A stretch of 64,000 nt of DNA from Gammaproteobacteria bacterium (GTDB taxonomy: Bacteria; Pseudomonadota; Gammaproteobacteria; Pseudomonadales; Azotimanducaceae): positions 1 through 64,000 of the forward strand of contig JAPOVK010000013.1 in the NCBI GenBank assembly GCA_026708185.1, read 5' to 3'. Shown piece after piece: positions 46,533-52,999 of this stretch. A program made the translations under genes and the position numbers. Each line of letters starts with the position of its first letter. Position 1 is the first letter of the stretch. A model generated the notes under the pieces. That model saw nothing but the letters and a program-made list of their open reading frames with translations. It was not told the DNA's origin and searched no databases.

Positions 46533-46925
46533 GTGAGGAAATCCTGTCTGGGGTGGGCGGTGACTGTTGTGCTTGCCATTGTCGTCGTGCCGGCGAGCCA
46601 TGCCGCATTGGCGAAGATCACGGCGAAAGCGCAACGGACGCTGGCGACCGATGGGGGCCGTTTCGGTGGTTGCATGGTCCAGTTGAACCGCAACATCGCT
46701 GTCCTTGCAGCGAATCTGCCGGAGCCTGTCGTGCTGAACTGTCCTGGATCCTGGGTTACGTTCAGTTGCAGCGGCGTCCACACGACCAAGGAGGCCGGGG
46801 CACGCATGTTCGAGTCCGCGAAGATGGGTTTCGAACAGGAGAAAACACTGATCCTCGAAGTGACCGACGAGAAGAAACACCACGGCCACTGTTATGTCCG
46901 CCGCATAGATGTGAAGAAAAACTGA
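46533..46925 (+). CDS. Small secreted protein with the four-cysteine domain (copy 1)
   Basis: 130 residues from a GTG with AAAGGG 8 bases upstream. A signal peptide (AVTVVLAIVVVPASHA) precedes a domain with cysteines in GGCM, LNCPG, WVTFSCSG and HGHCY, and the ending VRRIDV. The same pattern, with the same spacing of motifs, is in the proteins at 52619-52999 and at the front of 47351-49336. I do not recognise the family. Four cysteines in an exported protein suggest two disulfides. TACGGT at 46495-46500 may be its -10 box. Confidence 0.8.
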   Translation: MRKSCLGWAVTVVLAIVVVPASHAALAKITAKAQRTLATDGGRFGGCMVQLNRNIAVLAANLPEPVVLNCPGSWVTFSCSGVHTTKEAGARMFESAKMGFEQEKTLILEVTDEKKHHGHCYVRRIDVKKN

Positions 46926-46941
46926 CCGCACGGCTGTCGTC

Positions 46942-47361
46942 GTGGTGCCCATGAGGCGGCGCAGGATTGCTTGGTTTTGCGGCATCGCGGCGCTGTCTGC
47001 CGTCGCCTGGCTCTGGTTCGAGACGACATCGCCTGCTGGTCCACGGCCGAAGGACACCGTCCCGGTCGCCGCGACCGCACCGTCCGACGCCGTTGCGGGG
47101 CCGGAAACCGCCACGGATCTCGTGCGTTTGATCCGGCCCGCTCCCGCGACGCGTGGCGAGATCGGCGCGGTCCAACTTGGCCGCGATGCCGAAACCTATG
47201 TCGACCCCGATGCGCCGACGGCCTGGAGTCCCGGTCACCCGCCCGTGCATGTTGGCGACTACGTGGACCCGGAGGGTCCGGAACTCACCCCCGAGGAGGG
47301 TAGGACAGTGCATGTCGGCGAGTGGCTGGATCCCGACGGCGAGCCGAACGATGGCCCGTGA
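46942..47361 (+). CDS. Small membrane-anchored protein with DPDG-type repeats
   Basis: 139 residues from the GTG at 46942, or 136 from the ATG at 46951. A basic start and hydrophobic segment (IAWFCGIAALSAVAWLWF) precede a Pro/Ala-rich linker and three short acidic repeats: ETYVDPDAP, VHVGDYVDPEGP and VHVGEWLDPDGE. It starts 16 bases after the four-cysteine gene and its last 11 bases overlap the start of the TSP3/propeller gene. This is the same arrangement as 33132-33782 with its metalloprotease. Function unknown; calcium or partner binding by the acidic repeats is a guess. Confidence 0.65.
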   Translation: MVPMRRRRIAWFCGIAALSAVAWLWFETTSPAGPRPKDTVPVAATAPSDAVAGPETATDLVRLIRPAPATRGEIGAVQLGRDAETYVDPDAPTAWSPGHPPVHVGDYVDPEGPELTPEEGRTVHVGEWLDPDGEPNDGP

Positions 47362-49336
47362 CCGCGTGAAGGCATGGGCGCCCCCGGGGGCTTTGCACCG
47401 GGCGGTCTGTGCCCTTGCACTCGTGGTGGCGGCTGGAGTGCGCGCAGCAACGCTGTCGATCGAGGCGGGCGTTGAACAGATCGCGGCCATCGAAGACAAC
47501 CGCCAGGGCGGATGCGCCGCCAAGCTTGAGACGTCCCTCGGTGCCGCAGGCTTGGACTGTCCTGGAGACTGGGTGACCTTCGATTGCGCCGCCCCGACGG
47601 CCCATGGCGGTGGCGACCGCATGTACGGACTGCTGCGGGCCGCTGTCGCAGATGGGAAGTCCGTCGCTCTCACGGTCACGGACGAGGCGAAGACCGGCGG
47701 CTACTGCCGGGCAGGCCGGGTCACTGTGCAGGACTCGCCGTTCGTCGACGTGGACAGCGACGGTGACGGGGTGGATGACTTGGACGACGACGTGCCGCTC
47801 GACGCCTTCGAAGTCACCGACAGCGACGACGACGGCATTGGCGACATCACCGACGAGGACGACGACAACGACGGTGTTCCCGATGTTGACGACGCGCTGC
47901 CGACGAACCCCGACGAATGGCAGGACACGGACGGCGACGGGATCGGCAACGTCGCCGACCTCGACGACGACGGAGACGGCGTCCTCGACACGGAGGATCT
48001 GTTCCCCGTCGGCACTGTTGCCTTTGACCTGCACCACGGCAGCGACAATCCGATCGGGATCGTGGCAGCAGACGGGAACCTGTACATGGTGGATCGGCGG
48101 GACGAGCGGGTCTATGCCTTCACGCAGAACGGCGTTCGATATCCCTCGCGTGACTTCGACCTGGTGCCGGATAGACGGGAAATCCGGGACATCGCGTACG
48201 CCTCGGGCCACTTCTACCTCTTGTACGAGCGTCTGTTCCTGGTCCATGCGTACACCCCGACCGGGGACCGCGCATACGAACGGGACTTCTCGCTTGACGC
48301 TGCCAACACGTACCCGTTGGCGCTCGACTACCACGACGGGCTGTTCCGAGTCGTCCAGTACGACGCTACGCGCAGCAGCGTGCTGGCCTACACGGAACTT
48401 GGCGAGCGCGTACCGGTGCGCGATTTCGATCTAGATGCCGCGTCAAAGCAGCCCGGCAGCATCACGCACCGCGCCGGCGCGGTCTACGTGCTAGACCTCG
48501 CGGACGCGAAGGCCTATGCGTACACGCAGACGGGGGAACGACGCACGACGTTCGACTTCGACATCGAGGGAGGGTACGCCGCCGGCTTCACGTACGCCGC
48601 AGGCCGGTTCCGCATCGCGTACCTGAACAGGGCCGTGGCGATCGCCCACCTGGCCGACGGCCGGCGAGCCCCGGCGGACGACTTTGACGCGAGCCCGGGC
48701 ACGAACGACGCGCCGGCCGGGGTCGCGTACTTCGAAGGCAAGTTCTACGTCATCGACAAAGACGAGAGGAAGGTCTTCGTCTACTCGACTTCCGGCGAAC
48801 ACCTCGCCGACCGGGATTTCGCGCTCAGTTCGCCCGATATCCCGTACTACGCGACGTTTGTCGGCGACACGTTACTGGTCGGTGCGGGACCCGGGCGGAT
48901 TCACGCATACCACCACACGGGCGGGCGTATTCCTTCCAGGGACTTGGGGACTCGCGCGGGATACCGCGCGGTCGGAATCGAGCACGCGAATGGCCGAGTC
49001 TACGTTGGCGATGCCGACTTGCGCCGACTGGCGGCCTACACCGCTGATGGCGAAAGGACGGAACGCGACGATGTCAGGGTACTCGCCGGTCCGCAGGGAC
49101 CGCGTGGCATCGGCTATGGGCACGGCCGGTTCTACACCGGCGACTGGACAGACGAGCCCCGGATATTCGCTTACGACGCGCTCGGGCGGCACCTTCCCGA
49201 CTACGACTTCGATCTCGGAGCACCGTTCCGCGGTCGCGAAGGAGCCCACGGGCCGGCTGGCATGGTCTTCGCCGATGGCGCCCTCTACGTCCTCGACTGG
49301 CGGAGCGATCGGATTCTGCCTTACGCGGTCGACTAG
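47351..49336 (+). CDS. Secreted protein: four-cysteine domain, TSP3 repeats, beta-propeller
   Basis: 661 residues from the ATG at 47351. Signal peptide (residues about 15-33, ending VRA), then the four-cysteine domain (GGCAAKLE, LDCPGDWVTFDC, GGYCRAGRVTV) at about 34-130, then a TSP3 calcium block (DSDGDGVDDLDDDVP and similar) to about 215. About eight repeats of 50 residues follow (typically V-x-A-Y-T-x-x-GER-x-x-x-RDFDL), best read as a beta-propeller. All parts point to an exported, calcium-stabilised binding protein. It overlaps the small anchored protein by 11 bases. Confidence 0.85.
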   Translation: MARDRVKAWAPPGALHRAVCALALVVAAGVRAATLSIEAGVEQIAAIEDNRQGGCAAKLETSLGAAGLDCPGDWVTFDCAAPTAHGGGDRMYGLLRAAVADGKSVALTVTDEAKTGGYCRAGRVTVQDSPFVDVDSDGDGVDDLDDDVPLDAFEVTDSDDDGIGDITDEDDDNDGVPDVDDALPTNPDEWQDTDGDGIGNVADLDDDGDGVLDTEDLFPVGTVAFDLHHGSDNPIGIVAADGNLYMVDRRDERVYAFTQNGVRYPSRDFDLVPDRREIRDIAYASGHFYLLYERLFLVHAYTPTGDRAYERDFSLDAANTYPLALDYHDGLFRVVQYDATRSSVLAYTELGERVPVRDFDLDAASKQPGSITHRAGAVYVLDLADAKAYAYTQTGERRTTFDFDIEGGYAAGFTYAAGRFRIAYLNRAVAIAHLADGRRAPADDFDASPGTNDAPAGVAYFEGKFYVIDKDERKVFVYSTSGEHLADRDFALSSPDIPYYATFVGDTLLVGAGPGRIHAYHHTGGRIPSRDLGTRAGYRAVGIEHANGRVYVGDADLRRLAAYTADGERTERDDVRVLAGPQGPRGIGYGHGRFYTGDWTDEPRIFAYDALGRHLPDYDFDLGAPFRGREGAHGPAGMVFADGALYVLDWRSDRILPYAVD

Positions 49337-49471
49337 ACGCCCGGGGACGTCGAGCGAATCTCGGCAACCTGGTCGCGGTCAGCGCGACGGTGGCCTTGGG
49401 GATGGCCGCGTGTTGGCGTCCGCGCGACGCGCGTCGAGCCACGGTGCACGCTTGCGGTCGCGCGTGCCTCC

Positions 49472-49933
49472 TTAGTCGTCGACGGTGTCGCGCACGCTCC
49501 TACGAACCAATTCGATTGCGCGCGGTCCGACGCTGGCCCCGAGCGCGAACCCGGCGACGGCCAGGCTCGGCCGCCGGGTCACCGCGAAGGCCAGCGCGCC
49601 GAGTCCCAAGCCCGCGGCCCACGCTTCGAGTTGCCGGCTTGACGCCTCGCCCGTCCGTGCGCGCGTGACGGTGTGCTCGCAGTTGTTGGTGAGGAGGTTG
49701 TAGCGCCGCGGGTTCTCCGTGCGCGCTGCCCTGACGGTGCGCCGTCGTTCGTCCGTGCGCAGCCGCTTCACGTACATCCGGTGACCGGCGCGGAAACTCT
49801 CCTCCGTGCTGACGTGTTCGCCGTCCAGCGGCGTGTTGTGGAACACCCGACCGTTGCCGAGCGCGATGCCCTTGTGCAGGACCAACCCCTTGCGCCGCAG
49901 GAGAATGTCGCCGGGTAAATGACGTGTAACCAT
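49472..49933 (-). CDS. LRAT-domain (NlpC/P60-related) protein
   Basis: 153 residues. The LRAT pattern is visible: PGDILLRRKGLVLHKGIAL (His20), a second histidine in GRVFHN, and the catalytic-type NNCEH with Cys85 (YNLLTNNCEHTVTRARTG). The C-terminal part is hydrophobic (LGLGALAFAV, LAVAGFALGASVG), as in eukaryotic H-Ras-like phospholipase/acyltransferases, where it anchors the enzyme to membranes. Bacterial members are little studied. It could act on lipids or on peptides. Stands alone between the propeller gene and the cytochrome gene. Confidence 0.8.
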   Translation of the reverse strand: MVTRHLPGDILLRRKGLVLHKGIALGNGRVFHNTPLDGEHVSTEESFRAGHRMYVKRLRTDERRRTVRAARTENPRRYNLLTNNCEHTVTRARTGEASSRQLEAWAAGLGLGALAFAVTRRPSLAVAGFALGASVGPRAIELVRRSVRDTVDD

Positions 49934-50032
49934 GGCCAGACCCTAGCAGTTTTCGTTCCACCAGGGCAAAACATCAGCGAATCAATACATTAGGGGTCGG
50001 CCAACACTGCCGGGCCGGTCGGACTCGCCACC

Positions 50033-50365
50033 TCACTCGGCGTGAAGCACCATGTAGTCAACGGCCTGTTCGAGTGCCTGGTCCGTACACGCGGGGCATG
50101 CGCCGCGCGGCGGCATGCCGGGCATCATGCCGCGCTTCACGTTGGCGTAGAGCGTCTCGCGCCCTTGGGCGAGTCGGGGTGCCCAGGCCTCGGGGTCGTT
50201 GAGGGCCGGCGCGCCGGCGATGCCAGCTTCGTGGCAGGCGTAGCAGTAGCGTTCGTAGACCGCCTGGCCTGGATGAGGCGGTTGGTCCGGGTCGCCGCTG
50301 CAGCCGGAGCCGGCGAGCAACGCCAGGGCGACGGCGAACACCGCCGACCGTGCTTTCTCGTCCAT
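50033..50365 (-). CDS. Cytochrome c5-like protein
   Basis: 110 residues with an N-terminal signal (AVFAVALALLAGSG), possibly a lipoprotein at Cys22. One haem-binding CYACH (Cys41, Cys44, His45), the sixth ligand Met in GMMPGMPP, and a C-terminal cysteine pair (ACPAC) are the marks of cytochrome c5. It carries electrons in the periplasm. It follows the omega-amidase gene by 2 bases on the same strand, though the two functions are unrelated. Confidence 0.88.
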   Translation of the reverse strand: MDEKARSAVFAVALALLAGSGCSGDPDQPPHPGQAVYERYCYACHEAGIAGAPALNDPEAWAPRLAQGRETLYANVKRGMMPGMPPRGACPACTDQALEQAVDYMVLHAE

Positions 50366-50367
50366 TT

Positions 50368-51144
50368 CTATGCCCTGATCTTGAAGTCGTCGGCGTCGCG
50401 CCATGCCGGGAACCGTTGGCGATAGGTGTCGAGTTCGTCCAACTCGAGCGACACCGTGACCACGGTTTCGCGGTCGAAGACCTCGGCCAGCGCCTCGCCT
50501 TCGGGCCCGTAGGCGCCCGAGCCGCCCCGGTAGTCGACACCGTTGCCGTCCCGGCCGATCCGATTGACGCCGATCGTGTAGCACAGGTTCTCGACGGCCC
50601 TTGCGCGCAGCAGCGTGTTCCACGCGGTTTGCCGCGCGGCGGGCCAGTTGGCGACGCACAGCAACGCGTCGTAGTCGCCCCGCGAGCGCAGCCAGACCGG
50701 GAACCGCAGGTCGTAGCACACGGAGAGGCGAATCCGCCAGTCGCCAAGCTGGACATTCACGCGCGATTCGCCCGCCGCATAGTGTTCATGCTCGCCGGCC
50801 ATGCGGAACAGGTGCCGCTTGTCGTAGACGGTCTCCCGACCGTCGGCTGGCATCCAGACAAGGCGGTTGTAGCAGTAGCCGCCGTCCTTGACGACGACGC
50901 TGCCGGCAACTGTCGCACCTCGCTTGGCGGCGAGTTCACGCAGCCAGGCCACCGTTTCTCCGTCCATGGACTCGGCCACTTCCGCGGAGGCCATCGTGAA
51001 CCCCGTGCTCAGCATCTCCGGGAGAACGATGAGGTCGACAGCCGGATCGATATCGGCCGTCAGGCGGTCGAACAGCACCCGGTTGGCAGCCGGATCGTGC
51101 CAATGGAGGGCGGTTTGGACGAGGGCGACGCTCAGAGTTCGCAT
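50368..51144 (-). CDS. Omega-amidase, nitrilase superfamily (YafV-like)
   Basis: 258 residues from the ATG at 51144. The catalytic triad of the nitrilase family is visible as Glu43 (LPEML), Lys109 (YDKRHLF) and Cys143 (SVCYDLRFP). The Y-D-K-R-H-L-F and C-Y-D-L-R-F-P forms are those of omega-amidases, which hydrolyse 2-oxoglutaramate and 2-oxosuccinamate. The start overlaps the stop of the aminotransferase gene by 13 bases. The aminotransferase would make the 2-oxo amides from glutamine or asparagine, which this enzyme would pull forward: the glutamine transaminase-omega-amidase pathway. Confidence 0.93.
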   Translation of the reverse strand: MRTLSVALVQTALHWHDPAANRVLFDRLTADIDPAVDLIVLPEMLSTGFTMASAEVAESMDGETVAWLRELAAKRGATVAGSVVVKDGGYCYNRLVWMPADGRETVYDKRHLFRMAGEHEHYAAGESRVNVQLGDWRIRLSVCYDLRFPVWLRSRGDYDALLCVANWPAARQTAWNTLLRARAVENLCYTIGVNRIGRDGNGVDYRGGSGAYGPEGEALAEVFDRETVVTVSLELDELDTYRQRFPAWRDADDFKIRA

Positions 51145-52283
51145 AGCGTCTCGGCGGCGCGCTCTAGGGTGGCGTCGTCCTTCGCGAAGCAGAAACGCAG
51201 GTAGGTCTGCGTCGGCGGCTCCTCGTAGAAGACCGAGATCGGGATGGAGGCGACCTTCTTCTCCACAGTCCACCGCCGGGCGAGTTCGGCGTCGGGTTCG
51301 TTGGAGATCTGCCCGTAGTCGACAAGCTGGAAGAAGGTCCCCGCCGACGGGGTCAGGCGGAACCGGGACTCGGCGAGCAGGCCGCAGAACAGGTCGCGCT
51401 TCGCCTGGTAGAACGCACCGAGGTTCTCGTGGTGCTCGGGGCAGCTCTTGAGGAAATCCGCGATTCCGTACTGCAAGGGCGTGGCGGTGGTGAAGGTGAC
51501 GAACTGATGCACGCGACGGAACTCCGCGCTAAGACCCGCGGGGGCCACGCAATAGGCCACTTTCCACCCCGTCGTGTGGTAGGTCTTGCCGAACGAAGAG
51601 ACCACGAAGCTGCGCGCGAACAGGTCCGGGTAGCGGCAAAGGCTCACGTGCGCCCGCCCGTCGAAGAGAATGTGCTCGTAGACCTCGTCGCCCACCACGT
51701 AGATGTCGCCGCGGGCCAGCACCGAGCGGAGTCCGGCGATGTCGTCTTGGTTCCAGACGGCGCCGGTGGGGTTGTGGGGCGTGTTGACGATGACGAGGCG
51801 CGTCTTCGGCCCGATGGCGTCGTGCACGCGGTCCCAGTCGACGTGGAAGTCGGGCGCGTACAGCGGGAGGTGGCGGCAGACGCCGCCGGCGAGAGTCACC
51901 GCCGGTTCGTACGAGTCGTAGCAGGGGTCGAAGACGATCACCTCGTCACCGGCGTGGACGACGGCGTTGATGGCGCAGAAGAGCGCCTCGGTGGCGCCGG
52001 AGGTCACGGTCACCTCGCTCTCCGGATCCACGCTGATGCCGTAGAGGTTCGCCACCTTGCCGGCAATGGCCTGCCGTAACGGCTCGATGCCGGACATCGG
52101 CGGGTACTGGTTGTAGCCGCGGTTTAGGTAGTAGCTCACCCGTTCGAGAAGCTCAGCCGGCCCGTCGAAGTCGGGATAGCCCTGCGACAGGTTGATCGCG
52201 CCCTCGTCGGCCGCGAGCTTCGACATGACCGTGAAGATCGTCGTGCCGACGTTCGGCAGCTTGCTCTCGAGCGGCACTGGCAC
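51132..52283 (-). CDS. Methionine/glutamine aminotransferase (YbdL-like), class I PLP enzyme
   Basis: 383 residues from the GTG at 52283. The long in-frame extension to 52484 runs through GC-rich repeats and is rejected by comparison with family starts (PLESKLPNVGTTIFTVMS). PLP-enzyme marks: INLSQGYPDFDGP, NTPHNPTGAVW, VGDEVYEH and the Schiff-base lysine in SSFGKTYHTTGWK. These enzymes transfer amino groups from glutamine, methionine or aromatic residues and serve methionine salvage. Coupled by a 13-base overlap to the omega-amidase gene. Confidence 0.92.
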   Translation of the reverse strand: MPVPLESKLPNVGTTIFTVMSKLAADEGAINLSQGYPDFDGPAELLERVSYYLNRGYNQYPPMSGIEPLRQAIAGKVANLYGISVDPESEVTVTSGATEALFCAINAVVHAGDEVIVFDPCYDSYEPAVTLAGGVCRHLPLYAPDFHVDWDRVHDAIGPKTRLVIVNTPHNPTGAVWNQDDIAGLRSVLARGDIYVVGDEVYEHILFDGRAHVSLCRYPDLFARSFVVSSFGKTYHTTGWKVAYCVAPAGLSAEFRRVHQFVTFTTATPLQYGIADFLKSCPEHHENLGAFYQAKRDLFCGLLAESRFRLTPSAGTFFQLVDYGQISNEPDAELARRWTVEKKVASIPISVFYEEPPTQTYLRFCFAKDDATLERAAETLCEL

Positions 52284-52446
52284 GGTCCGAAGGCGATTCA
52301 CGAACGCGCGATTCTGCCACAGCGGTGGTGCGGGGACGTCCTCGTCCGCACTCCCCGTACCCGATGCACTGTGGTTCCCGGGGCACCCCCCGCGGCCAAG
52401 CGTCCGGATTCGCCGACCGCATCCCGGCGAGGGCACGGTGCCCAAT

Positions 52447-52469
52447 GCGGGCCAGGAGGCCCGCGTACC
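52447..52469 (-). repeat. GC-rich hairpin repeat, copy C
   Basis: The reverse complement is GGTACGCGGGCCTCCTGGCCCGC, one base different from copy B at 61589. It stands between the diverging aminotransferase and four-cysteine genes. Confidence 0.65.
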
Positions 52470-52618
52470 GCCTCGCTGACGCATCGTTGCCCTCCGGTGC
52501 CGAGCTTGCTACGTTGCGTTGGCCAGTAGTTTGGTCGCTGTAGCGCTAAGGTCGGCACTTCCAGGCAAAATCGGAAGTCGGCGAACCTTGGTCCCATTGA
52601 ACGAACGGGAGGAGGCCA

Positions 52619-52999
52619 ATGACGACTACGATTCGGCGAGCTGGCAGGTGCGTGGTCGCCCTAGCCTTGGTCGCGACGCCGATGCCTCTGACACAGGCGA
52701 CGACGGTAAGCTTCGAAGCACGCATCACCCGCACGCTGTCGGCTGCGGAAGGTTTTGGCGGCTGCATGGCTGCGCTGGACGTGTCGCCGTCCGACAGCGG
52801 CCTTGACTGCCCAGTCGGCGGCAAATGGGTGACGTTCAGTTGCACCGGCGACCATACCAGCAAGCTGGACGCCTTGCGCAGTTTCGACTCCGCCCAACTG
52901 GCCTTCGTGACGGGGCGCCGCGTACGGGTCTGGGTGGACGACACCCGCAAGCACAACGGGCACTGTTTCGTCTCGCGGATAGACGTACTGAGTTCGTGA
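52619..52999 (+). CDS. Small secreted protein with the four-cysteine domain (copy 2)
   Basis: 126 residues with a strong ribosome site (GGGAGGAGG) before the ATG. A signal peptide (CVVALALVATPMPLTQA) is followed by the same domain as at 46533: GFGGCMAAL, LDCPVGGKWVTFSCTGDHT, SFDSAQLAFVTGRRVRVWVDD and HNGHCFVSRIDV. The second half (FDSAQ, V-x-V-x-x-DD, GHCFVSRIDV) is the best conserved. It stands alone with a good translation signal. Function unknown. Confidence 0.82.
   Translation: MTTTIRRAGRCVVALALVATPMPLTQATTVSFEARITRTLSAAEGFGGCMAALDVSPSDSGLDCPVGGKWVTFSCTGDHTSKLDALRSFDSAQLAFVTGRRVRVWVDDTRKHNGHCFVSRIDVLSS

Follow-up and report, generated by a model that had tools for sequence, protein, structure and literature searches.

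The window analysed here, a 64,000-nucleotide stretch of contig JAPOVK010000013.1 from the genome of a gammaproteobacterium (assembly GCA_026708185.1), carries three genes, A, B and C, for a small exported domain with four cysteines, and a further gene, X, for a short putative membrane protein, which lies between A and B. We consider it about 40% probable that the domain is an exported, disulfide-stabilised binding module with the OB fold of AB5-type toxin B subunits, that it acts without a toxic A subunit, and that in its original form it is paired with X as a two-gene envelope module in which motifs of X dock the OB domain. Gene X was absent from the original prediction and is the most informative feature of the locus.

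Gene A (46533..46925, plus strand, GTG start) encodes a stand-alone domain of 130 amino acids, recognised from its open reading frame (ORF) and from BLASTP comparison with B and C. It is followed by X (46942..47361, plus strand), which encodes 139 amino acids, or 136 if the ATG at 46951 is the start. The ATG start codon of B (47351..49336, plus strand) is located 11 bases inside X, the two genes thus overlapping; in B the domain is fused to an acidic TSP3-like stretch and a part read as tandem propellers. Gene C (52619..52999, plus strand) encodes a second stand-alone domain of 126 amino acids, of which a model was built, and no X was found within 3 kb of it. A signal peptide could be recognised by eye in each of A, B and C, in agreement with the three exported proteins originally proposed at these positions. 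Promoter and terminator scans gave nothing useful, and the repeat search found none of note.

Two-sequence BLASTP comparisons revealed 41% identity over 120 positions for A and C (E 1e-27), 32% over 117 positions for A and B (E 2e-19) and 36% over 118 positions for C and B (E 1e-15), each E-value referring to a single comparison. Chance resemblance of the three proteins is ruled out by these values. The GGC motif, a second cysteine, WVTF-x-C and the final C-x-x-x-R align across A, B and C as had been predicted; together with the E-values, this alignment places the three-gene family beyond chance and shows, as judged from the protein sequences, common descent of the three domains. In an alignment of 39 distinct members, the four cysteines were the only invariant columns. 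This alignment comprises 39 of 44 domain stretches, the near copies L073, L076, L075 14404-14712 and L090 and the frameshifted L072 being omitted; a copy with an internal stop in genome G401 (L084) stands outside the 44. Gene A has an 85% identical copy in a sister genome with a ratio of nonsynonymous to synonymous substitution rates (dN/dS) of 0.13, and the same comparison gave a dN/dS of 0.46 for X.

The window's own genome (5.13 Mb, 65 contigs) contains a fourth copy at C43:24090-24440, the next match having an E-value of 0.86. When genome contigs of bacteria and archaea were scanned, nine loci emerged, all titled as gammaproteobacterial metagenome-assembled genomes; among them was the sister genome, which shares A and C as well as the fusion in B. 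Whole-genome profile searches detected the domain in 28 of 200 family genomes, in 4 of 293 order genomes (one weak at E 5e-4), in 5 of 369 class genomes at an E-value threshold of 0.01 (a strong match and three weak ones besides the own genome) and, among 398 genomes of the phylum, in the own genome only. Spread by plasmids or phages found no support, as protein C had no match in the plasmid and phage collections searched and the four pattern matches in viral contigs did not encode a relative. A weakly related secreted protein (L018 1357-1719, E 5e-4) from another family of the order keeps the second-half pattern and may be a bridge to further OB families. In two very diverged members (L068 4973-5542 and L069 4830-5378) the C-terminus is extended by an acidic stretch rich in D, and an X was found with neither.

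Each of the 39 members was scanned singly against Pfam, NCBIfam and PHROGs. The best Pfam matches were Allergen_Asp_f_4 (E 0.002, one member), Lectin_C_term (E 0.0067, one member), DUF5992 (E 0.027, three members) and DUF5961 (E 0.027, two members), and no B-subunit family was among the Pfam matches. The profile cut-off of DUF5992 was not reached by its three members, and protein C scored 14.2 bits with DUF5961 against a cut-off of 25; both families are of unknown function, and DUF5992 is not mentioned in the literature collection searched. The best NCBIfam match, in one of 39 members (L091 2027-2329), was NF011800, 'subtilase cytotoxin subunit B-like protein' (E 0.0062), a match which spans the helix and the last two strands, and the best PHROGs match was phrog_7715 (E 0.0015, three members). 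Cut-offs were displayed for the three window proteins and, with NCBIfam, for 20 members; none of these reached one. A sequence search found no solved structure, and a narrow literature search returned no title or abstract start concerning the four-cysteine domain or X. For the 17 X proteins scanned against Pfam and NCBIfam, no match was better than E 0.02. These results support the view that domain and X family are unnamed in the curated libraries searched, as had been supposed for the domain.

The AlphaFold2 model of C has the predicted topology b1-b2-b3-helix-b4-b5. In the model of B, the OB domain shows strands at residues 2-14, 22-27 and 42-46, a helix at 56-69 and strands at 72-83 and 86-94, the same order of elements as in C. 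AB5 B subunits made up 41 of the 50 Foldseek matches and 42 of the 50 VIA matches listed, with a few toxins contributing many of the entries; chains of the SubB type (subtilase cytotoxin B subunit) were included. None of the Foldseek matches listed had an E-value below 0.001, and other OB folds scored close (SilF 9.8, protein-glutaminase prodomain 9.3, RecO 8.9). A search of viral structures gave no clear match (best E 2.1e-3). The models support a fold of the AB5 B-subunit type for the domain, and their topology suggests disulfide bonds C26-C52 and C41-C93 in the numbering of the modelled chain.

The domain resembles the B subunits of AB5 toxins (LT-II, cholera/LT-I, pertussis S2/S3 and PltB/ArtB/SubB types) in its size of about 100 residues, its export, its predicted OB fold with a long helix between strands 3 and 4, and in that these are its best structural matches. 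It differs from them in its four conserved cysteines, in its fusion to a TSP3-like stretch and propellers, in its membrane partner X and in lacking sequence-level membership, the best score being 16.7 bits (NF011800) against a cut-off of 195. A classical A subunit is also missing: the families PF02917 (Pertussis_S1) and PF01375 (Enterotoxin_a) had no match at E-values up to 1 in the own genome, which is 97% complete. The AB5 likeness proposed in the original prediction thus persists as a predicted fold and fails as family membership. SilF is among the best structural matches as well, with no sequence match found; the four-cysteine pattern is not known from SilF.

The original prediction had suggested a surface or secreted ligand-binding role beside a large adhesin-like protein; it had overlooked X, the partner which tracks the domain through genomes. 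X consists of an N-terminal hydrophobic helix after basic residues and an acidic low-complexity tail ending with VGDYVDPE and VGEWLDPD. Similarly built genes lie next to the domain at other loci, where five overlap the domain gene by 4 or 8 bases and the tails repeat [IV]GxxLDPD with variations. A search pattern for two copies of this motif, written after the tails had been seen, was applied to the window and 37 loci in six frames and matched 10 ORFs, each lying no further than about 0.5 kb from a domain gene; twenty 20-kb background pieces gave no match. At the DNA level, the motif was counted 66 times in the own genome, against 8 for a control pattern, and by eye a same-strand pair within 200 bases occurs once, in X.

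A profile of 20 tails from genes beside domains detected only two X genes in the own genome, C24:47239 and C43:24818. Because this profile was built from genes near domains, a leave-out test was performed in which each locus and its near kin (three groups) were removed and the rest scored against every ORF of that locus plus 3698 background ORFs; an X frame was still best in 18 of 20 loci. Among the 200 family genomes, 17 contain X and all but one of these also have the domain; in the order, X was found in three of 293 genomes, all three with a strong domain match. In the seventeenth family genome (G392), X is represented by 44 codons that include two motifs but lack a hydrophobic helix, and a domain match was found neither in the surrounding 7 kb nor elsewhere in the genome; we read this stretch as a relic. 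Fisher tests of co-occurrence gave 3e-15 for the family and 1e-6 for the order, values which are only descriptive since they ignore kinship and the construction of the profile. An X accompanies 24 of the 39 domain rows and changes state 6 times on the domain tree compared to about 12 times in shuffles, near copies adding to this clustering. The labels of the 39 rows were set by hand from the neighbourhood listing, an automatic screen and the profile: the screen alone misses several X genes (e.g. L057, L064, L075, L086), the profile misses that of L092 (G388), and row L057 7677 was counted as positive from a 69-amino-acid frame with the motif. The analysis thus shows linkage of the domain with X, gene overlap and motif conservation.

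From motif conservation, gene overlap and co-occurrence we infer docking of the domain by the motifs of X. X would be held in the inner membrane by its one helix with the N-terminus inside, and its acidic, flexible tail would point outward and carry the motif [IV]GxxLDPD once or several times. These motifs would dock the OB domain, either alone as in A or at the head of large fusions as in B, and X might in this way bring together several OB domains or a whole ring at the envelope, thereby positioning the fused TSP3-propeller proteins. The X-paired state would be the original form, and an oligomer is likewise conjectural. Such an arrangement would resemble in its working the cohesin-dockerin type of scaffold, where an anchored protein bears repeated docking motifs and the folded partner module is fused to varied cargo.

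Several observations weigh against this mechanism. No X was found for 15 of the 39 domain rows, including window C, and X is therefore not obligatory; in a few of these rows the contig stops close to the domain. The domain is not basic, its mean net charge being -1.9 (range -11 to +5), so that simple charge attraction between X and the domain is unsupported and does not explain docking. In the leave-out test, the best frame at L057 was a short X-like frame before a second B gene, with the main X second (E 0.028), the X of L064 ranked behind a background ORF (E 1.2) and that of L062 was missed. Profile and search pattern both derive from domain-adjacent genes, so that unbiased evidence comes only from the leave-out test and from the absence of X in other places, and the link on the tree rests on a quick, midpoint-rooted tree of the 39 domains with 8 of 36 inner branches well supported. 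X could also serve the large neighbours or be the substrate of something else.

The fusion in B begins with the mature OB domain (47447..47737, plus strand), followed by an acidic DxDxDG stretch (47738..48046, plus strand) and ten three-strand sets (48050..49333, plus strand). The propeller part of the original prediction is supported by a fold search on the model, which points to tandem propellers of the NHL/YWTD type; this model is of modest confidence, with a mean predicted local distance difference test (pLDDT) score of 69.2, a predicted template modelling (pTM) score of 0.41 and mostly pLDDT <50 in the acidic stretch. The TSP3 part is less secure, as PF02412 scored 20.2 bits in B, below the cut-off of 25. 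Two B-like genes in a relative (G076, L057), which combine OB and TSP3 parts, scored 27.5 bits, above this cut-off, and 18.2 bits, below it, and their TSP3 part is followed by CARDB or by a part without Pfam name. The sister B gene is apparently frameshifted in its propeller part (L006 near 6318).

Two window neighbours were scanned with Pfam, giving LRAT and OMP_b-brl, and the others were judged from sequence. The small LRAT-family protein (49472-49933, minus strand) lies between B and C. A MalT/LuxR-type regulator adjoins A divergently in the sister (L006 963-3761), where the window has an RluA-like gene as read from its sequence, and another lies upstream in G076 (L057 43-2709). Large exported proteins near the domain at other loci include an LRR/fn3/PPC protein (L012), a DUF11 protein with bacterial TSP3 (L062), a subtilase with Ig and TSP3 28 bases upstream (L063), a subtilase downstream (L009), a TED-like protein with TSP3 (L070), a leishmanolysin (M8) with fn3 (L061) and, in L066, an FG-GAP protein with TSP3 and, 0.8 kb off, an M4 peptidase whose TSP3 match stays below the threshold. 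Elsewhere the neighbours are ordinary, and an amidase, an amidohydrolase and unrelated genes were seen as well. In four related genomes (L074, L076, L079 and L080), an amidase-like gene follows the domain gene and an amidohydrolase-like gene lies on its other side, no X being found; Pfam was run on one of these four (as L007).

Some large exported proteins near the domain end with one of two kinds of short tail, GWRL/GWKL or LLLKI-like, in some cases after TSP3 (L063 1005-4919; L066 676-3111 and 6145-9675; L075 15326-18787; L078 1275-4520; L083 5430-10400; L084 5442-8771; L087 3549-7793; L090 1388-4678). A tail pattern matched 10 of 66 closed ORFs of at least 500 amino acids in 36 domain regions compared to 2 of 89 in the background, which consisted of the window and twenty 20-kb pieces of one genome. 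This enrichment is a lead only, because the pattern was written after the tails had been seen. The two background matches look unrelated, and a further background protein (L161 14648-17428) ends with NWRLEW and has no domain match near.

Among other explanations, we regard an A-less lectin as rather unlikely; in this reading the domain would form rings like B5 pentamers and bind sugars on other cells or in an animal host such as a sponge, with X only aiding export or assembly. Its nearest folds are toxin B subunits, which bind host glycans, although the close scores of SilF, the protein-glutaminase prodomain and RecO show that OB folds with other roles fit similarly, and a linked membrane partner would be unexpected for a released lectin. 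Orphan B subunits are described in a published report (PMC9120245). The sister genome bears the bin name COS4 and two cousins RHO1, and a demosponge study which sampled Coscinoderma and Rhopaloeides links symbiont genes to adhesion through cadherin and fibronectin and reports such genes for using the sialic acids of the sponge (PMC8163846). The bins presumably derive from such sponges, and the host bacteria are probably animal symbionts.

A generic periplasmic OB protein, such as a metal carrier or a folding or cell-wall helper, whose toxin-B likeness reflects a shared simple fold only, is in our view also unlikely. The lack of a Foldseek E-value below 0.001 among the matches listed would fit, as would the high rank of SilF, a small OB protein for which the PDB has silver and copper forms. 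However, the fusions to TSP3-like and propeller or CARDB parts and the nearby large repeat proteins point outward, and four cysteines as the only invariant residues would fit disulfides better than a metal site. Very improbable is a wider envelope docking system in which toxin-B-type OB domains would be receptors for short linear motifs, both the [IV]GxxLDPD arrays of X from the inner membrane and the C-terminal GWRL/LLLKI tails of large secreted repeat proteins encoded near the domain, in a way similar to the grip of AB5 rings on the A-subunit tail. In subtilase cytotoxin, a subtilase is combined with an OB B subunit, and the domain might correspondingly be the B part of a genuine AB system, with a secreted protease or another large protein encoded alongside as its A part, as the adjoining proteases (L009, L063, L066, L061) and the subtilase cytotoxin B-subunit chains among the fold matches suggest, but we judge this very unlikely, as each kind of neighbour was seen once or twice, other neighbours being an amidase, an amidohydrolase and unrelated genes, neither Pfam-scanned window neighbour is A-like, and Pertussis_S1 and Enterotoxin_a are unmatched in the own genome.

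Should the wider docking system exist, toxin B subunits and this system would share an ancestral task, the holding of a peptide tail in an OB ring. The findings place the predicted AB5 B-subunit fold in bacteria that are probably animal symbionts, where a classical toxin subunit is missing and a putative membrane partner is linked to it, and this X-linked setting offers a concrete test of the role of the fold outside toxins. Together, the domain and X suggest a binding module in the envelope of the bacterial cell that is as yet undescribed.

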